From: Cyanobium sp. FGCU52
GTDB taxonomy: Bacteria > Cyanobacteriota > Cyanobacteriia > PCC-6307 > Cyanobiaceae
NCBI GenBank assembly: GCA_024958715.1
Contig: JANWUS010000063.1
Span: forward strand, 1-64,000
DNA: 64,000 bases
Direction of reading: 5' to 3'
A program made the translations under genes and the position numbers. The notes below the pieces were generated by a model. It made no database searches and was not told where the DNA came from. It saw nothing but the letters and a program-made list of their open reading frames with translations. Positions 42,439-50,973 of this stretch are shown here, in pieces; the first letter of the stretch is position 1, and each line of letters opens with the position of its first letter.

Positions 42439-43056
42439 TCAGGTCGGCGGCTCGGATCCCTCAAGCGCCCGGCGCGAGGCCCGGCCCGCCACCCACACGC
42501 TCGCCACGGTGGCCAGCACCCCCACGATCCGCAGGGCCCAGGTGCCGGCATCGGCCTCACCGGAGAGCACCTCGCCGAAGCGGGCCACGTCGCCCGCCAG
42601 GGCCCCCAGACCCACGAACAGGATCGTGCCGGGCAGGATGCCGATCAGGCCGATGGTGTAGTCGCGCAGGCTCACCTCGCTGAGGCCGTAGGCCAGGTTG
42701 AGCAGGGAGAAGGGGAAGGCGGGCGAGAGGCGGGTGAGCAGCACCAGCTTCAGGCCCTCCCGGCTCACCGCCTGCTCTACCGCCAGCAGCTTCGGCAGCG
42801 CCTGCATGCGCTGGCGGGCCCAATCGCGCAGCACGTGGCGGCCGAGCAGGAAGGCGGCCTCGGCGCCGAGGCAGGCCCCCAGGAACACCAGCACGCTGCC
42901 CGTGAGCGTGCCGTAGAGGGCGCCGGCCAGCATCGAGGCCCACACCCCCGGCAGCAGCAGGGTGACCCAGAGGGCATAGAGAGGCACGAAGGCGGCGGCC
43001 CCCAGGGGGCTGCGCAGGGCCGGCAGCCACGACGACAGCAGGTGCGAAGCGTCCAT
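42439..43056 (-). CDS. TVP38/TMEM64 (VTT) family membrane protein
   Basis: A 205-residue integral membrane protein of the SNARE-associated/VTT (DedA-related) family. Landmarks are 'LLPGVWASMLAGALYGTLTGSVLVFLGACLGAEAAFLLGRH', 'LVLLTRLSPAFPFSLLNLAYGLS' and 'YTIGLIGILPGTILFVGLGALAGD', giving about six membrane segments with the reentrant 'F/LLTRLSP.FPF' motif. Related proteins are linked to lipid scrambling or transport. It is the last gene of the minus-strand run after glnT, 32 bases away. Confidence 0.9.
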   Translation of the reverse strand: MDASHLLSSWLPALRSPLGAAAFVPLYALWVTLLLPGVWASMLAGALYGTLTGSVLVFLGACLGAEAAFLLGRHVLRDWARQRMQALPKLLAVEQAVSREGLKLVLLTRLSPAFPFSLLNLAYGLSEVSLRDYTIGLIGILPGTILFVGLGALAGDVARFGEVLSGEADAGTWALRIVGVLATVASVWVAGRASRRALEGSEPPT

Positions 43057-43088: not shown

Positions 43089-44360
43089 TCAGGCGGTGGC
43101 CGGGACCGTGGGCAGGCGGTGGCGAACGGCGAGGGCCCGGTAGGCGGCGCAGAACTCCGGGCCCAGGGCTTCAGAGAGCACGGTGTCGGCCTCGAAGGCG
43201 GCCAGGGCCTCCGCCAGGCTGGTGGGCAGGCGCCGGGCCTCGGCCTCCGAGGGCGGGTGGGTGTAGGCGTTGGTGTCGAGACGAGGGCCGGGGTCGAGCT
43301 GGCGCTCGATGCCGTCGAGACCGGCCGCCAGCACGGCGGCCTGCAGCAGGTAGGGGCTGGCGGCGCCGTCGCCGAGGCGCAGCTCGATCCGGCCGGCGTC
43401 GGGAATGCGGATCATGTGGGTGCGGTTGTTGCCGCCGTAGGTGATCCAGGAGGGCGACCAGGAGGCGACGGAGGTGCTGGTGGCCCGGCCGAGCCGGCGG
43501 TAGCTGGCCTCCACCGGGTTGGTGAGGGCGCAGAGGGCCGGAGCATGGGCCAGCAGACCGGCGAGGAACTGATAGCCGAGGGTGGAGAGCCCGAGCTCGC
43601 CGGCGGGATCGGCGAACAGGTTGGTGCCCTCGCCGCTCCAGAGGGAGAGGTGCAGGTGGGCGCCGTTGCCGGTGAGCTCATCGAAGGGCTTGGGCTCGAA
43701 GCTGGCCCGCAGGCCGTGGCGCTCCGCCAGGGTGGCCACCATCACGCGGAAGAAGGCGTGGCGGTCGGCGGTGGTGAGGGCGTGATCGAAGGTCCAGTTG
43801 ATCTCGAACTGGCCGTTGGCGTCCTCGTGGTCGGCCTGATAGGGACCCCAGCCCAGGGCCTCCATGGCCTCCAGCAGCTCGGAGATCAGGGGGTAGCGGC
43901 GCATCAGCGCCAGCTGGTCGTAGCAGGGTTTCTCGCCGGTGTCGCGGGTGTCGGCGATGGCATCGGCGAGCGGATCGAGCAGGAAGAATTCGGGCTCCAC
44001 CCCCGTGCGCAGATGCAGCCCCTTGGCGGCGGCCCGCTCGAGCTGGCGCTGCAGCACCAGGCGCGGCGCCTGCTCCAGCGGCACACCGCCCACCGCCAGG
44101 TCGGTGGCCACCCAGGCCACCTCCGGCTGCCAGGGCAACTGGGTGAGGCTGGCGGGATCGGGGCGGGCCAGCACGTCGGCGTCGGCCGGGGTCATCTCCA
44201 GCCAGGCGGCGAAACCGGCGAAGCCGGCACCCTCGACCGCCAGCTCGGCCGCGGCGGAGGCCGGCACCAGCTTGGCCCGCTGCACGCCGAACAGGTCGCT
44301 GAAGGAGAAGAGGTAATGGCGCACCCCGTGATGGGCGGCGAAGGCGGCGAGGTCGGTCAT
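43089..44360 (-). CDS. glnT: Type III (GlnT-like) glutamine synthetase family protein
   Basis: A 423-residue glutamine synthetase fold protein. Active-site motifs are present: 'GVEPEFFLLDP' (metal Glu), 'DANGQFEINW', 'NGAHLHLSLW' (ATP/metal His), and 'NNRTHMIRIPDAGRIELRLGD' (glutamate and phosphate Arg). The sequence suits the short 'type III glutamate-ammonia ligase' group (GlnT), which includes gamma-glutamyl-amide ligases, rather than the long cyanobacterial GlnN. The substrate amine is therefore open. Its ATG overlaps the stop of the upstream hydrolase by four bases, implying a joint pathway. The start is 'MTDLAAFAAHHG'; the track ORF is much too long. Confidence 0.85.
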   Translation of the reverse strand: MTDLAAFAAHHGVRHYLFSFSDLFGVQRAKLVPASAAAELAVEGAGFAGFAAWLEMTPADADVLARPDPASLTQLPWQPEVAWVATDLAVGGVPLEQAPRLVLQRQLERAAAKGLHLRTGVEPEFFLLDPLADAIADTRDTGEKPCYDQLALMRRYPLISELLEAMEALGWGPYQADHEDANGQFEINWTFDHALTTADRHAFFRVMVATLAERHGLRASFEPKPFDELTGNGAHLHLSLWSGEGTNLFADPAGELGLSTLGYQFLAGLLAHAPALCALTNPVEASYRRLGRATSTSVASWSPSWITYGGNNRTHMIRIPDAGRIELRLGDGAASPYLLQAAVLAAGLDGIERQLDPGPRLDTNAYTHPPSEAEARRLPTSLAEALAAFEADTVLSEALGPEFCAAYRALAVRHRLPTVPATA

Positions 44361-45373
44361 GGCTGGGGAAGAAGGGCGTCGAGGGCGTGGCGGATGAAGG
44401 CCTGCTCGCGGGGCTGGTCGCGGGGGTTGCCGGCCCGGTGACCGAGGGGCGAGTCGAGCTCGAGGAAGCGGGCCCCGGGGATCAGGGCCGCCTCGGCGCG
44501 GCAGTCGGCGGGGGTGAAGTAGAGGTCGTGGGAGCCGGCGATCACGCAGGTGGCGGCCTGGATGCGGCCGAGGGCCGCGGCCAGGTCGTCGCCGCAGCCG
44601 GCGGCCGCCGCCACGTCGCTGGCGAGCCAGGTGTCGAGCATCGCCAGCAGGTTGTGGGGGTCGTGACGCCGGTAGGCCGGCAGCCACGCCTGCTCCACGT
44701 AGTCGTCGACCGTGGCGTAGCCGAGCCGCAGGTGCTCGCCGGCCGCGTAGAAGGGCTGGCTGGCGGCCCAGCTGGCGTAGATCAGCGCGAAGGTGCGCAG
44801 CCCCTGCTCCGGCAGGGCCGTGAAGCGCTCGCCGTTCCAGGCCGGATCGGCGGTGAGCGCCTGGCGCAGGCTGAGCAGGAACAGGCGGTTGTGGGGGGTG
44901 GTGCGGGCGGTGCCGCAGAGGCAGCAGAGGCGGCGGCTGCGCTCCGGCTCCAGCACGCCCCAGTGGTAGGCCTGCTGGGCCCCCATCGACCAGCCGTAGA
45001 TCAGGGCGGGCGCCTCGACGCCGAACACCTCCTCCAGCAGGCGGCGCTGGGCGCGCACGTTGTCGGCGTGGCGGATGAGCCAGCCCTGTTCGGCGGTGCC
45101 GATCGGGCTGTTGCTGGGGCTGCTGGAGCGGCCGTTGCCGAACTGGCTCGCCAGCACGATGCACCAGCGGGCGGGATCGAGCACCGGCCCCACCACCCAG
45201 TCGAGATCCTCCAGCCAGGCGCCGTAGGAGCTGGGATGGAGCACGAGGTTGGAGCGGTCGGGGGCGAGCTGGCCGAACACCCTGTAGCTGAGGTGGGCGT
45301 CGTCGAGCTCGCGGCCGTTGTCGAAGCGGAAGCGGCCGAGGCGAAAGATCTGCTCGCCGGGGGGGAGGGTCAT
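44357..45373 (-). CDS. MetX-like alpha/beta-fold hydrolase
   Basis: A 338-residue alpha/beta hydrolase resembling homoserine O-acetyltransferase (MetX). The nucleophile elbow is 'YGWSMGAQQAYHWG' (Ser about 129). The acid is in 'AGSHDLYFTPADC' and the base His in 'SPLGHRAGNP'. 'ASQFGNGRSSSPSNS' takes the place of the MetX substrate-loop signature, so the acyl acceptor is probably not homoserine. It is translationally coupled to glnT (four-base overlap) and lies 16 bases after the desaturase stop. Hydrolase or acyltransferase activity cannot be told apart from the sequence. Confidence 0.8.
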   Translation of the reverse strand: MTLPPGEQIFRLGRFRFDNGRELDDAHLSYRVFGQLAPDRSNLVLHPSSYGAWLEDLDWVVGPVLDPARWCIVLASQFGNGRSSSPSNSPIGTAEQGWLIRHADNVRAQRRLLEEVFGVEAPALIYGWSMGAQQAYHWGVLEPERSRRLCCLCGTARTTPHNRLFLLSLRQALTADPAWNGERFTALPEQGLRTFALIYASWAASQPFYAAGEHLRLGYATVDDYVEQAWLPAYRRHDPHNLLAMLDTWLASDVAAAAGCGDDLAAALGRIQAATCVIAGSHDLYFTPADCRAEAALIPGARFLELDSPLGHRAGNPRDQPREQAFIRHALDALLPQP

Positions 45374-45389
45374 CGGGGGGATGCTGCGC

Positions 45390-46334
45390 TCAACCGGCCT
45401 GGGGCAGGGCCAGGGCGGAGAGGTCGCGGCGGAACTCGCGGTGCACCGCCAGGTAGCCGACGCCGATGTGCTCAAGCTGGGGCGCCAGGAGCGCATGGGC
45501 CTCGGGGGCGGCGTGGAACGGCAGCGAGGGGTAGAGGTGGTGCTCGGCGTGGAACGGCATGTTCCACATCAGCCGGCGCAGGGGCGCCAGGGTGAGGGTG
45601 GTGCGGGTGTTGCGCAGGCCGTCGGGCTCGAAGGGGCAGCCGCCGTGTTCGGCCATCAGCACGAAGCGCAGCAGCGGCTGGCCGATGGCCAGGGGCAGCA
45701 GCCAGAAGCGCAGCAGGGCATCGGAGCCGGCGGCGATCGAGGCCACGGCAAGCAGGGCGTAGAGCCCGATCTGCAGCCGGATCGAGCGCACCACCTTCGG
45801 CGCCACCGCTTCAGGGATGTAGGGACAGCCCTCGAAGGCACCCACCAGGCCACGGGCGTGGCCGCGGATCTTGCCGATCCACCAGGGAAGGCCGCTCAGC
45901 TCCAGCAGGTAGCTGGCCAGGTTGTGGGGCGGCGCATCCTCCAGTTCGGGATCGAGCCCGATCTGGTGGGTGTAGCGGTGGTGCCACTGGTGGTAGCGGC
46001 GGTAGAAGTCGGCGTTGTAGAAGCTGAGCGCCCCGGCCCCCCAGGCCACGGCGTCGTTGAGCCAGCGGCTCTGAAAGGCGGTGCGGTGGCCGCACTCGTG
46101 CATGGCGCAGAAGCCGAAGGCCAGCCCGGCGCCGAGCAGCAGCAGGCCGGCGAGCCGCAGGGGCAGGGGCAACGCCGCGGAACCCCAGGCCAGCCCGCCC
46201 ACCAGCAGCACCGCCAGATGGAAGGCGAGCTGGCGAAGGCCCGGCCCATCGCGGCGCTCGTTAAGGCGCTCGAGCTCGGCCGAGGGGATCAGATCCCGGG
46301 TGACGGGAGGGGGCGGCGGCGCCGTCGACGTCAA
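45390..46334 (-). CDS. Membrane fatty acid desaturase family protein
   Basis: A 314-residue membrane di-iron enzyme of the fatty acid desaturase superfamily, distinct from the two DesC-like copies. The His boxes are 'HECGHRTAF' (HxxxH), 'HQWHHRYTH' (HxxHH) and 'HAEHHLYP' (HxxHH), with hydrophobic hairpins between them. This arrangement suits omega-type desaturases and carotenoid hydroxylase/ketolase-like enzymes; the substrate is not clear. The only start before the conserved part is a TTG at 46334. It heads the coupled desaturase-hydrolase-glnT run and lies 27 bases after the EAL-GGDEF stop. Confidence 0.85.
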   Translation of the reverse strand: MTSTAPPPPPVTRDLIPSAELERLNERRDGPGLRQLAFHLAVLLVGGLAWGSAALPLPLRLAGLLLLGAGLAFGFCAMHECGHRTAFQSRWLNDAVAWGAGALSFYNADFYRRYHQWHHRYTHQIGLDPELEDAPPHNLASYLLELSGLPWWIGKIRGHARGLVGAFEGCPYIPEAVAPKVVRSIRLQIGLYALLAVASIAAGSDALLRFWLLPLAIGQPLLRFVLMAEHGGCPFEPDGLRNTRTTLTLAPLRRLMWNMPFHAEHHLYPSLPFHAAPEAHALLAPQLEHIGVGYLAVHREFRRDLSALALPQAG

Positions 46335-46361: not shown

Positions 46362-48461
46362 TCAGCCAGCGCCGCGGCTCGCATGGTCCACGGCGGACGT
46401 TCCGGCGGCGCCATCGAGGGTGCGGCCGACCACCCGGTTGCGGCCGCTGCGCTTGGCCGCGTAGAGGCAGTCGTCGGCGAGCTGCAGGAGCAGATCCACC
46501 GCGCAGGCGCTGCCGCTCTCCGGCCGCAAGATGGCGATGCCGACGCTGATGGTGAGGCGATGGCCGGCCTCGGCGGACGGATGGTGGATGCCGGCGCCCT
46601 CCACCAGCTGGCGCAGCTCCTCACCGACGGCGAGGGCACGCCCGGCATCATGGTCCGGCAGGATCAGGCCGAACTCCTCCCCCCCGAGCCGGGCGACGAA
46701 GCCGGTATTGCGGGGCAGGTGGGCCGCCAGCAGGGCCGCAACCTGGCTCAGGCACGCATCGCCGTGGGCGTGGCCGAGGGTGTCGTTGATCTGCTTGAAG
46801 CGATCAAGATCGATCAGGGCCAGGGCCAGGGGCTTGCCGGCGGTGACCACGGCGACGACTTCGGCACGGATGCGTGAATCGAAACTCCGCCGATTCGGCA
46901 GTTCCGTGAGTGAATCGAGCAACGCCAGTCGGCTGGCCCGCTCGCATTCGAAGGCATGAAACAGCAGACTCAGCAGATTGCTGAGCATTTCGATCCGCTC
47001 CACCTGGGCCTCGCTGAATCGTTGCGTACCGCGCAGACAGATGGAGACCACCGGGGTCGAGACCCCTCGTGATGAGAGGCGAAGCCCGAGATAGTCGGTG
47101 CCGCCCTGCTGGCGCAAATCCTCCAGATAGGCGAAACCCGCCGTCTCCCCATCACCGAGCGGCAGACGCACGATCGGCGCGCGGGTGGCGATGTGGTGCA
47201 GCACGCTGCTGAGATGCTGTGCCGTCTGCAGAAAATCGCGCTGCATGCGAATGCTCTGCACCTCCCCTGGTCTGGTGACATGCCAGATGAACTGGTGGCA
47301 ATCCACCTCCTCCTGATCCGGCAGGAAGGCGAATGACAGGCGCAGCACATCCAGATTCAGGCTCTGCAGTTCGCGGAGGCAACAAAGCATCACCTCCTCG
47401 AAATCGCGCATGCTCGCCCAGTGATTCAGCACATAGCGCTCCAGTGGCATCGGCGCCAGCGCTGCCGTTGGGATGGGCTTGGCCAGCAAGGGCGCCTGGA
47501 CCCGGGCATCGGCCTGCTGGATACGGCTGCTCATTGCGCTCAGGCAGTCCGGCTTCAGCCAGGGGCTGTCGCGCAGGAACGGGGCGAGCTCCGGCCAGGG
47601 CAGCGGCTTGGCGATCAGGTAGCCCTGCAAGGCATCCACCCCCAGACGCAGCAGCAGCTCCAGGTCGCGCTGCTGTTCAACGCCCTCGGCCACGACGGTC
47701 TTGCCGAAACCGTGCACCGCCTCGATCAGGGAACCCACGAAGGTCTGCATCCGGAAGGAGGCGGCGATCCCTCGCACCAGCTGCAGATCGAGCTTGATGG
47801 CGTCGTACCAGGCCTCGCAGAGGCGCCGGTAGTTGGACAGACCCGAGCCGAAGTCATCCACCAGCAGACGGACGTTCAGCTCCTCCATCAGTCGCTGCGA
47901 GACCGAGCGCATGTCGTCGACGCCCGGCAGCTGCTCCATGGCGGCCGTCTCAGACAGCTCGAAGCGGAACAGGTCACGGTCCACCCGCTGGTCGCGCACC
48001 TGGCGGATGAGGGCGTCCTGACGCTCGATCGTCTCGACAGAGCCTGCGCTGATGTTGACCGTGATGTAACGGATGCGCTGACGCAGAGGACCCAGGGCAT
48101 GCCAGGCCTGCTGCACGTCTCCCAGGCGCTGCAAAACCAGCTCATCGAGCCGATGGACCAGCCCCAGCTCCTGGGCGCACTGCACCACCGCTCCGGTGCC
48201 GAGGGCCGCCAGTGCGGGCGAGCGAAAGCGCACCAACAGTTCCATCGCGCATTGGCCGGGGTCGCGCACCAGCAGGATGGGCTGGAAGCGCAATTCGAAA
48301 TCTTCTGCCTGCAGGGCCCCCAGCTGCGCGGCGATGATCGGATCGTTGGCTTTGCGCGTTGGAGCGCCGCCGCTGTGCGGGCCTCGACCTGCTCCTCCTC
48401 TGAGTCGCAGACGGCCGCGACGACCGGAGGGCCGGCGACTGGAAGAGGAAGGAGCTGGCAA
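46362..48461 (-). CDS. EAL-GGDEF protein with reversed domain order
   Basis: About 699 residues. The EAL phosphodiesterase domain comes first (about 45-300): 'FQPILLV', 'MELLVRF' (ELL form of EAL), 'VNISAG', 'FELSETA', 'LLVDDFGSGLSNYRRL', 'IKLDLQLV' and 'VVAEGVEQ', so the catalytic residues look intact. A GAF-like middle follows. A GGDEF diguanylate cyclase domain is last (about 525-690) with the active 'RLGGEEFGLIL'. Most dual proteins have GGDEF before EAL. The start is weak: the only in-frame codon is a TTG at 48461, and a stop lies seven codons upstream, so the true N terminus may be missing or frameshifted. No membrane segment is seen. Confidence 0.85.
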   Translation of the reverse strand: MPAPSSSSRRPSGRRGRLRLRGGAGRGPHSGGAPTRKANDPIIAAQLGALQAEDFELRFQPILLVRDPGQCAMELLVRFRSPALAALGTGAVVQCAQELGLVHRLDELVLQRLGDVQQAWHALGPLRQRIRYITVNISAGSVETIERQDALIRQVRDQRVDRDLFRFELSETAAMEQLPGVDDMRSVSQRLMEELNVRLLVDDFGSGLSNYRRLCEAWYDAIKLDLQLVRGIAASFRMQTFVGSLIEAVHGFGKTVVAEGVEQQRDLELLLRLGVDALQGYLIAKPLPWPELAPFLRDSPWLKPDCLSAMSSRIQQADARVQAPLLAKPIPTAALAPMPLERYVLNHWASMRDFEEVMLCCLRELQSLNLDVLRLSFAFLPDQEEVDCHQFIWHVTRPGEVQSIRMQRDFLQTAQHLSSVLHHIATRAPIVRLPLGDGETAGFAYLEDLRQQGGTDYLGLRLSSRGVSTPVVSICLRGTQRFSEAQVERIEMLSNLLSLLFHAFECERASRLALLDSLTELPNRRSFDSRIRAEVVAVVTAGKPLALALIDLDRFKQINDTLGHAHGDACLSQVAALLAAHLPRNTGFVARLGGEEFGLILPDHDAGRALAVGEELRQLVEGAGIHHPSAEAGHRLTISVGIAILRPESGSACAVDLLLQLADDCLYAAKRSGRNRVVGRTLDGAAGTSAVDHASRGAG

Positions 48462-48601: not shown

Positions 48602-49765
48602 ATGGTTAAAACTGCGTGGCGTGATGTCCTGCCGGCGCACAACTCAGTGGAATCGACAGCCCTGATCGTCGGTGGTGGCATCGCCGGACTGGCCAGTGCC
48701 ATTGCCCTTGGCCGGCAGGGCTGGCGTTGCACGATCCTCGAGCACGATGTCGCCCGTAGCCGCCCTGGCCAGGGGCTGTTGGCACCCCCCAGCGGCCGCA
48801 AGGCTCTGGAGCAGCTCGGGGTGGGCGGCGTCGACAGCTGCAGCGCTCCCATCGACGTCTTCGAGCTCTGTCAGCGCGATGGCAGCACCCTCCGGCGTTT
48901 CCCGATCCCTGGCTCGATGGCTGTGCTGCATCGGGATCTGCTGGAGCTGCTCCTGCGTTCTCTGCCCGCCAGCACCCAGCTGATGCCCAGCCGCTGCGTC
49001 GGCCTGGACACCCGCACCGATGGCTTCCTGGACCCGATCGATACGGAGGGGCGCCGCTGGCGCAGCGATCTCGTCGTGGCTGCCGATGGCGTGGGATCGC
49101 TGTGTCGCCGGCTGCTGTTCCCCCAGGCCCGGCTGACCCCGGAACGCACCACCGAGACCGTGTCGGTGCTCCAGAGGCCGGACCTGGCGCGATCCCTGGG
49201 GATCAGTTGCCGCAAGTTCCATGATGCTGAGGCGGGTCTGGCGCTGGGGTTGTTGCCTTGTCGCGATGGGCAGGGGGTCGTCTTCTGCCAGTTCGCCACG
49301 GCGCTGCATTCCCCGGGCGACGCCGCGGATTTGGCGATGCTGCTGCGGCGCTCTTTCGGTGGCTGGAATGCCTGTGTCGACAGCCTGCTGAGCGACCGTG
49401 ACATCGACCAAGGACGCCTCTGGCACACCACCGATCTCGACCCGCTGCCGCGATTGTTCGCGGGCAATCTGGTGTTGGTGGGCGACAGCGCCCATCCCCT
49501 GCTCACCGTTACCAGTCAGGGCGCATCATCGGCCTTGGAAGATGCGCTGGTGCTGGCCAATGCCCTGGCGGGGGTCAGCGGCAACGAGCCCGAGACCCTG
49601 ACCACGGCCCTGGATCGTTACAGCCGTGCCCGGCTGCCGGTGGTCGCCAAGTTGGTGTGTGAAGGACGCCAGAAGCAGCAGCAGTTCCTGGATCCCCACC
49701 ACGGCGCCAAGGCTGCCAGCGCTCCACTGGTGGGCTTCGGTCTGGAGCCGATCCTTGCCGGATGA
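48602..49765 (+). CDS. FAD-dependent monooxygenase
   Basis: A 387-residue flavoprotein of the aromatic hydroxylase/UbiH type. The N-terminal Rossmann motif is 'ALIVGGGIAGLASAIALGRQG', the middle 'DLVVAADGVGSLCRRLL' is the DG motif, and 'NLVLVGDSAHPLLTVTSQGASSALEDA' is the GD motif that contacts the FAD ribityl chain. The substrate is unknown. An alternative start is a GTG near 48647. Its last codons overlap the aminotransferase-like gene (ATGA), so the two are coupled. A TTGACA lies at 48550-48555 upstream without a good -10. Confidence 0.87.
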   Translation: MVKTAWRDVLPAHNSVESTALIVGGGIAGLASAIALGRQGWRCTILEHDVARSRPGQGLLAPPSGRKALEQLGVGGVDSCSAPIDVFELCQRDGSTLRRFPIPGSMAVLHRDLLELLLRSLPASTQLMPSRCVGLDTRTDGFLDPIDTEGRRWRSDLVVAADGVGSLCRRLLFPQARLTPERTTETVSVLQRPDLARSLGISCRKFHDAEAGLALGLLPCRDGQGVVFCQFATALHSPGDAADLAMLLRRSFGGWNACVDSLLSDRDIDQGRLWHTTDLDPLPRLFAGNLVLVGDSAHPLLTVTSQGASSALEDALVLANALAGVSGNEPETLTTALDRYSRARLPVVAKLVCEGRQKQQQFLDPHHGAKAASAPLVGFGLEPILAG

Positions 49766-50973
49766 CGCCCCCCGATCCCTTCGGCGAGCTGTTCGGAGAT
49801 GCATCCGTTCCGCACGAGGCCCTGCGTCGCCAGGCCTTCAACCTGCGCTGGGCCACCCAGCCAGCGGATGTGATTCCGCTCACGGCTGCCGATCCGGATT
49901 TTCCCGTGGCGCCCGCGGTGCGCGAGGCGATCGCCCGCCAGGCGCGGCAAGGGCTGTTCTGCTACGGGCCGGCCGAGGGCCTGCCGGCGTTTCGCGACGC
50001 CTGTTCCCGCTTCAGCGAGGAGCGGCGCCACTGCCCTGCCAGGCCGGAGCAGGTGCTGGCCGTCGACAGTGCCGCCGCCGGCATGCGGCAGGTGTGCGCC
50101 CACCTGCTGCGGCCGGGCGATGAGGCGATCATCTTCGACCCGGTCGACTTCCTGTTTCAGGCGGCGGTGGAGGCCGCGGGCGGCCGGGTGCGACGATTGC
50201 CCGTGGATGCGCTGAGCGGTGAGCTCGCCCTGGACCAGCTGGAGTCTCTGGTCACACCCCGCACACGCCTGCTGGGGATCTGCAATCCGCTCAATCCGGT
50301 GGGCCGGGTGCTGCGCCAGGAGGAGCTGGAGCGGCTGGCCAGCTTGGCGCTGCGCCATCACCTGGTGATCCTCAATGACGAGGTCTGGGCCGACATCGTC
50401 TACCCACCGCACCGGTTCCAGAGCGTGGCGGCCCTGGGGCCGGAGCTGGCGGCCCGCTGCTGGACGGTGCACGGCTTCTCCAAGAACTATGGCCTGGCGG
50501 GGCTGCGGGTGGGCTGCGTGGTGACGCCCGATGCCGCCGCCTGCGCGGCACTGGCGCACTCCAGCCTGGCCAGCACCACGATGAGCGGGGTTTCCACCCT
50601 GTCGCAGATCGCGGCCGTCGCCGCCCTGCAGGAGGCCGACGACTGGCTGGCGGCCTGGCTGCAGCACCTGCGGCGGCAGCGGGATCTGGCGGTGGCGGAG
50701 CTGGGCACGATGCCGGGCACGCGGGTGAGGGCTCCGGAAGGCACCTACGTGCTGTTCCCCCAGGTGGACCACCGCGGCCTGGAGCCTGAAGCCCTGACGG
50801 CGCGACTGCTGGAGCGCCAGCGCCTGGCGGTGGTGCCGGGCTCGCCGCGGTGGTTCGGCCCCGGGGCGCAGGGCCATCTGCGGCTGGTGTTCTCCACCTC
50901 CGAGGCGATCCTGCGCGAAGGCCTCAGCCGGTTGCAGCGCGGCCTGGAGGAGCTGGCGGAGGACAGCGGATGA
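49762..50973 (+). CDS. MalY/PatB-like PLP C-S lyase or aminotransferase
   Basis: A 403-residue fold-type I PLP enzyme of the class I/II aminotransferase group nearest to MalY/PatB cystathionine beta-lyases. Landmarks are 'IPLTAADPDFPVAPAVREA', 'GICNPLNPVGRVLRQEELERL', 'ILNDEVWADIVY' and the PLP Lys in 'VHGFSKNYGLAGLRVG' (about 239). The conserved Arg that binds the carboxylate is in 'GHLRLVFST'. Whether it cleaves C-S bonds or transaminates cannot be settled here. It overlaps both neighbours by four bases (ATGA), so three genes are coupled. Confidence 0.85.
   Translation: MTPPDPFGELFGDASVPHEALRRQAFNLRWATQPADVIPLTAADPDFPVAPAVREAIARQARQGLFCYGPAEGLPAFRDACSRFSEERRHCPARPEQVLAVDSAAAGMRQVCAHLLRPGDEAIIFDPVDFLFQAAVEAAGGRVRRLPVDALSGELALDQLESLVTPRTRLLGICNPLNPVGRVLRQEELERLASLALRHHLVILNDEVWADIVYPPHRFQSVAALGPELAARCWTVHGFSKNYGLAGLRVGCVVTPDAAACAALAHSSLASTTMSGVSTLSQIAAVAALQEADDWLAAWLQHLRRQRDLAVAELGTMPGTRVRAPEGTYVLFPQVDHRGLEPEALTARLLERQRLAVVPGSPRWFGPGAQGHLRLVFSTSEAILREGLSRLQRGLEELAEDSG

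Follow-up and report, generated by a model that had tools for sequence, protein, structure and literature searches.

A conserved oxygenase, hydrolase and GmaS-type ligase gene trio in cyanobacteria, with a possible role in alkylamine assimilation apart from the N-methylglutamate pathway

What does a glutamine synthetase-like ligase do when it is encoded together with a membrane oxygenase and an alpha/beta-hydrolase? The question arises from three adjacent genes – here named des, hyd and gmaS – in Cyanobium sp. FGCU52 (GenBank assembly GCA_024958715.1), within a window of 64,000 nucleotides that comprises positions 1 to 64,000 of contig JANWUS010000063.1 (C63 in our numbering), part of a 3.48-Mb cyanobacterial genome that is 99.9% complete. 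All three lie on the minus strand. The des gene (46334-45390; TTG start) codes for a 314-aa protein predicted to be a MocD-like membrane non-haem di-iron oxygenase of the fatty-acid-desaturase superfamily, hyd (45373-44357) for a 338-aa alpha/beta-hydrolase of the PRK07581/MekB group, and gmaS (44360-43089; glnT in an earlier, sequence-only reading, the original prediction) for a 423-aa gamma-glutamylmethylamide-synthetase-type ligase (GmaS). Sixteen bases separate the end of the des stop codon (45390) from the hyd ATG (45373), and hyd and gmaS share an ATGA overlap (44357-44360, minus strand) made up of the hyd stop (TGA, 44359-44357) and the gmaS start (ATG, 44360-44358); the original prediction had described this layout exactly. 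The overlap likely couples translation of hyd and gmaS in this genome; it is peculiar to the window genome, the gap between the two genes being 11-372 bases in relatives. The same prediction held that the ligase may act on amines rather than assimilate ammonia, and that the trio may build or recycle a gamma-glutamyl or acyl-amide compound. Here, we find the trio to be conserved and co-inherited in cyanobacteria, and suggest that it may serve to assimilate small amines.

The first step is indicated by the ligase, which scores 578 bits against TIGR03105 (cut-off 469.6), carries a Gln-synt_C domain, and has 7CQL and 9QUR (glutamate-methylamine ligase) as its top solved structures. We take 7CQL to be RhGmaS of Rhodovulum sp. 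12E13, having ourselves matched the entry to PMC7948447, with which its residue numbering agrees. The window ligase and RhGmaS are 61.3% identical over 403 positions, and 22 of the 23 functional residues named in PMC7948447 are identical, the sole exception being the replacement of Tyr191 by Phe. The catalytic Asp177, Glu186 and Arg312 (RhGmaS numbering) are kept as D177, E186 and R313, and every residue of the amine pocket (Lys30, Tyr147, Gln175, Asp177, Glu179, Glu186 and Asn188) is preserved. Two residues of the ammonia site of glutamine synthetase (GS), Asp50' and Glu304, are absent, their places being taken by Ala48 and Trp301, as in RhGmaS. For RhGmaS the published Km values are 27 uM (methylamine), 58 uM (ethylamine) and 8.7 mM (NH4Cl; PMC7948447). 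A careful tree of 37 rows unites the window ligase, RhGmaS and alphaproteobacterial enzymes in a 30-row clade with support of 100/99, within which the four annotated alphaproteobacterial genes sit in mgs operons; no branch order within this clade is resolved, and that of a quick tree is not reproduced. Because the RhGmaS active site is kept, the GS ammonia-site residues are gone and the clade is shared with RhGmaS, the window ligase is very likely an amine-type, GmaS-like enzyme rather than an ammonia-assimilating one. Residues and clade thus support, at the level of sequence, the amine-type ligase that had been proposed, and the phylogeny against amide ligases, suggested at the time as a check, places the enzyme with RhGmaS and the GmaS of mgs operons. 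Automatic annotation names such a ligase 'type III glutamate--ammonia ligase'.

Is the association of the three genes more than a chance grouping? We surveyed 242 genomes of the class, assigning GmaS proteins to clade A (that of the window ligase; over 500 bits) or to group B (about 50-55% identity) by bit-score limits that we set from match lists. Both hyd and des are present in 90 genomes, with hyd alone in two and des alone in five, and they are same-strand neighbours in 86 of the 87 cases where both fall on one contig. Clade-A GmaS occurs in 71 genomes, 70 of which have hyd and 69 des, with the partners unlinked in many: gmaS is on the same strand and within 300 bases of hyd in 35 genomes, and many others have it at a separate location. 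Because hyd co-occurs with clade-A GmaS even when located elsewhere, the tie between them appears to be functional and to go beyond linkage. Group B never occurs alongside clade A, and is present in 18 of the 22 hyd genomes that lack it. The order des-hyd-gmaS is kept in all complete loci of the same genus, amid several different surroundings, and is seen in many other families; the whole trio is carried on a plasmid of Leptolyngbya BL0902, and a Nostoc plasmid has hyd-gmaS. In cyanobacteria the three genes are a conserved, co-inherited unit, beyond chance grouping, and the original prediction withstands one of its own refuting conditions, the lack of a conserved association.

If GmaS makes a gamma-glutamyl amide, what consumes it? 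The window enzyme shares its clade and active site with RhGmaS of the GmaS/N-methylglutamate (NMG) pathway (gmaS, mgsABC, mgdABCD), and the entry step is presumably the same. As a marker of NMG dehydrogenase we used its SoxD-like subunit, PF04267, which in 14 genomes has a further, more divergent GmaS no more than 6 kb away. The marker is missing from the window genome and from all 25 genomes of the genus. It is present in 24 of the 242 surveyed genomes, and clade-A GmaS, hyd and des are each missing from all 24 (Fisher p = 2e-4, 7e-6 and 3e-6, respectively), although the genomes share ancestry, so that these p-values overstate independence and are guides only, and the clade limits are score limits; this tempers the argument that follows. 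Counted by hyd, the marker is found in none of 92 genomes with the gene vs 24 of 150 others (p = 7e-6). Where GmaS A or B is paired with hyd/des the marker is again absent (0/90), vs 9 of the 16 remaining GmaS A/B genomes, and group B taken by itself divides likewise: none of 18 genomes with hyd, but nine of 17 without it (p = 3e-4). Marker-bearing and hyd-bearing states are both found within the same families (f2, f3, f12, f15, f24 and f26). Stand-alone MgsB (the GXGXG subunit) agrees across 40 genomes, with the GmaS-operon-type form in G025, G029, G030 and G038 only; in the window genome only a fused GOGAT and no stand-alone MgsB was found, nor was one found in the trio genomes examined.

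A canonical NMG pathway in the window genome was rejected on the absence of PF04267 and of stand-alone MgsB. The difference from that pathway is that no mgs or mgd genes were found in the window genome or the trio genomes examined, and des and hyd stand in their place. Downstream of GmaS, the hyd/des pair therefore probably substitutes for the NMG enzymes; it is placed there because an upstream amine-releasing module would have no reason to avoid NMG. With the NMG enzymes absent, the GmaS product lacks a canonical fate, and GmaS might instead solely detoxify methylammonium – a toxic ammonium analogue – for export of the product, while des and hyd perform an unrelated task. That the three genes are near-obligately co-inherited, even where unlinked, speaks against such a division of labour, which we consider improbable.

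The character of des bears on what the second half of the route could be. The protein matches PF00487 (FA_desaturase) at 8e-40, yet falls under the cut-off of every named NCBIfam desaturase/hydroxylase model (22-40 bits vs 380-500), with 22-23 bits against the DesA, DesB and CrtR equivalogs (cut-offs 475-500). Nine histidines (H79, H83, H115, H118, H119, H230, H262, H265 and H266) are identical in 79 of 79 homologues. No solved desaturase homologue was found by sequence search; an AlphaFold model (pLDDT 88.6) is closer in Foldseek to AlkB (TM 0.57) than to stearoyl-CoA desaturase (SCD1; TM 0.38), and its two top matches are chains of chloroplast Ycf2/Orf2971-FtsHi complexes. Judging by these scores and the predicted model, des appears to be far from the lipid desaturase families and to resemble MocD-type oxygenases, with an AlkB-like fold. 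The likeness to the MocD-type oxygenases of rhizobia lies in the shared FA_desaturase superfamily and in annotated relatives at about 30-41% identity, these being plasmid homologues labelled fatty acid desaturase or, in one case, MocD-like. The MocD-like gene that we inspected is accompanied by genes for a MocE-like Rieske protein and a reductase, whereas cyanobacterial des has neither alongside and probably draws on host ferredoxin.

The hydrolase belongs to the Abhydrolase_1/PRK07581 group, with 371.7 bits against NF005757 (cut-off 332). All 80 homologues compared keep its triad, Ser129-Asp283-His312, and the solved fold nearest to its model (pLDDT 85) is the MekB acetylesterase (TM 0.90, 35% identity). 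Fold and Ser-Asp-His triad are thus those of MekB and of the homoserine O-acetyltransferase MetX; the differences are that hyd misses the cut-offs of the NCBIfam MetX equivalogs (84 bits vs 500 and 86.6 bits vs 331) and that its partner here is a membrane oxygenase. No MetX, MetA or MetY above family cut-off was found by profile search of the window genome, and MetA was not found in 39 of 40 relatives. The missed cut-off and the lack of MetA and MetY above cut-off led us to reject a MetX role, and a part for hyd in acyl-homoserine methionine synthesis is unlikely. The family names of the original prediction accordingly hold at the level of the fold (PF00487, Abhydrolase_1/PRK07581, Gln-synt_C/TIGR03105), MetX giving way to a MekB-like enzyme. 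A second hyd-like paralogue (38-41% identity) is present in genomes with the NMG dehydrogenase marker (G025, G051, G052, G080, G123, G142, G182 and G203), and on a plasmid of Alisedimentitalea scapharcae (L204) a hyd homologue stands in a row with paired ureohydrolase genes and a gene of the glutamine synthetase family, an arrangement resembling a guanidine-compound degradation cluster.

Could the three simply be ordinary adjacent genes, coding for a glutamine synthetase of the ammonia type, a desaturase of lipids or carotenoids and a MetX of the methionine pathway, as the names used in automatic annotation would have it? The GS ammonia-site residues missing from the ligase, the failure of hyd as MetX in a genome with no MetY-family sulfhydrylase above cut-off, and a gene order conserved across many families all argue otherwise, and we regard this as very improbable.

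We instead favour, at a probability of roughly one half, the view that the trio forms a module for amine assimilation, which begins like a GmaS-first pathway and differs in its second half. In such a route GmaS would use ATP to link glutamate to a small alkylamine, with methylamine and ethylamine as the likeliest substrates, giving a gamma-glutamyl amide; des, as a ferredoxin-fed membrane di-iron oxygenase, would hydroxylate the N-alkyl carbon of this amide; and hyd, or spontaneous collapse plus hyd, would break down the oxidised intermediate, so that the nitrogen would come back in glutamine, or in glutamate together with an oxidised fragment. A more specific version is offered tentatively, and is itself rather doubtful: an NMG-independent cyanobacterial route for methylamine (or ethylamine) in which MocD-like des oxidatively dealkylates the gamma-glutamylalkylamide, MekB-like hyd completes the release, nitrogen enters directly as glutamine, and the one-carbon product is formaldehyde or formate.

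There are precedents for this order of steps. In both the Ipu route (PMC6776027) and the 1-naphthylamine route (PMC11335346) glutamylation precedes oxygenation and the oxygenase does not act on the free amine. The Ipu isopropylamine pathway uses the same three activities – glutamylation (IpuC), monooxygenation and hydrolysis (PMC6776027) – and the trio likewise encodes a GS-like ligase, a monooxygenase-type protein and a hydrolase together. The components differ: the Arthrobacter oxygenase is a multicomponent P450 system and its hydrolase a postulated amidotransferase-like enzyme, whereas the trio has a membrane di-iron enzyme and a MekB-like hydrolase, and neither an Ipu-homologous oxygenase nor such an amidohydrolase is found in the trio, des being of the FA_desaturase family and hyd an alpha/beta-hydrolase. 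In the aniline and 1-naphthylamine pathways (AtdA1, NpaA1), a GS-like ligase also tags the amine for an oxygenase; there the substrates are aromatic, the oxygenase is a multicomponent dioxygenase, and the ligases are grouped as GoaS, apart from GmaS (PMC11335346).

The order could also be reversed: des and hyd would act first, on a larger N-alkyl compound such as an N-alkyl amide, and liberate methylamine or some other small amine for GmaS to capture. Homologues of hyd at about 36-41% identity are located in amide/urea gene clusters (with amidase, urt-type transporter, ANTAR regulator plus substrate-binding protein, or cytosine permease genes), and alphaproteobacteria, mostly Bradyrhizobium (L222-L301), keep hyd-des in 62 of 80 loci with no gmaS nearby; these settings are the principal argument for the pair having a nitrogen compound of its own. 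An amine-releasing pair should nonetheless tolerate the NMG pathway, with which it never co-occurs in the survey, and on this reading nothing in these genomes is known to consume the GmaS product; we judge this order of events unlikely. Beside the alphaproteobacterial pair a TetR gene is often found and an iron-containing alcohol dehydrogenase gene rarely; two genomes have the latter in the vicinity of des and group-B gmaS as well.

Several observations weigh against GmaS-first amine assimilation. The alphaproteobacterial loci indicate that hyd-des can act outside a GmaS context. Among the surveyed cyanobacteria, four hyd genomes have neither clade A nor group B (G092, G136, G170 and G240), three have des and lack both hyd and GmaS A/B (G054, G163 and G221), and seven GmaS A/B genomes have neither partner set. 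The parts assigned to des and hyd in the route are themselves predictions from sequence, and no NtcA-like site was found upstream of the window copy of des.

Relatives differ in this last respect. The NtcA consensus is GTAN8TAC, and among AT-rich relatives 11 of 28 des upstream regions (300 bases) contain this motif, vs 15 of 181 control genes (p = 7e-5); these candidate sites would fit NtcA control and nitrogen scavenging. Seven loci have a GntR-UTRA regulator gene next to des, divergent in those read in detail.

The same evidence bears on the biosynthetic role first suggested for the trio, the making of a gamma-glutamyl or acyl-amide metabolite. A ligase, an oxygenase and an acyl-handling hydrolase could together yield a decorated amide, and some MetX-fold enzymes are acyltransferases; yet no transporter, carrier protein or tailoring gene is conserved with the trio, des lies under every lipid desaturase cut-off, and exclusion with a catabolic pathway and NtcA-like sites match nitrogen use better, so that biosynthesis seems quite unlikely. 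Nothing indicates an acyl-amide or lipid product, des resembling MocD-type oxygenases and hyd being MekB-like. As for the choice left between building and recycling a gamma-glutamyl compound, recycling comes close to the model proposed here, while building does not, the NMG exclusion pointing to catabolism or assimilation of a small amine.

A published alignment already includes Cyanophyceae GmaS (PMC7948447); we found no prior account of des-hyd-gmaS as a unit, or of the mutual exclusion between it and the NMG genes, in a literature search of open-access sources, and an earlier description elsewhere is possible. The gmaS gene serves as a biomarker of bacteria that use methylamine (PMC7948447), and its detection points to the NMG pathway, an inference that would be wrong in cyanobacteria to the extent that gmaS there is paired with the oxygenase and hydrolase. 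If the proposed route is correct, alkylamine nitrogen would be open to many cyanobacterial primary producers by a way of their own, an unrecognised use of organic nitrogen; two widespread genes, now labelled 'fatty acid desaturase' and 'alpha/beta fold hydrolase', would gain functions, and the annotation 'type III glutamate--ammonia ligase' would be corrected.

A second GlnT (TIGR03105) is encoded on contig C55 of the same genome (locus L057, 12436-32435), in a guanidinase-type operon with genes for arginase-family, HypA and HypB proteins, an ABC transporter and a GbcA-like Rieske oxygenase. Like the trio, this operon combines a TIGR03105 ligase with an oxygenase, and with genes for nitrogen compounds; it differs in having a Rieske oxygenase rather than des, and a ligase of a separate clade with a changed amine pocket (mostly T48, S175, D188, F189 and N237). 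Guanidinase-type operons adjoin the trio in many genomes of the genus (L037-L047, L058).

The trio of the window is flanked on the minus strand by an EAL-GGDEF gene (46362-48461), 27 bases upstream of des and possibly co-transcribed with the trio, and by a gene for a VTT-domain membrane protein (42439-43056), 32 bases downstream of gmaS. Neither is conserved with the trio, and both were dropped as partners for that reason; genes for EAL or GGDEF proteins are also near the trio at loci L035, L051 and L064. Farther along, on the plus strand (48602-50973), genes for an FAD monooxygenase and a PatB/GntC-like PLP enzyme overlap by four bases.

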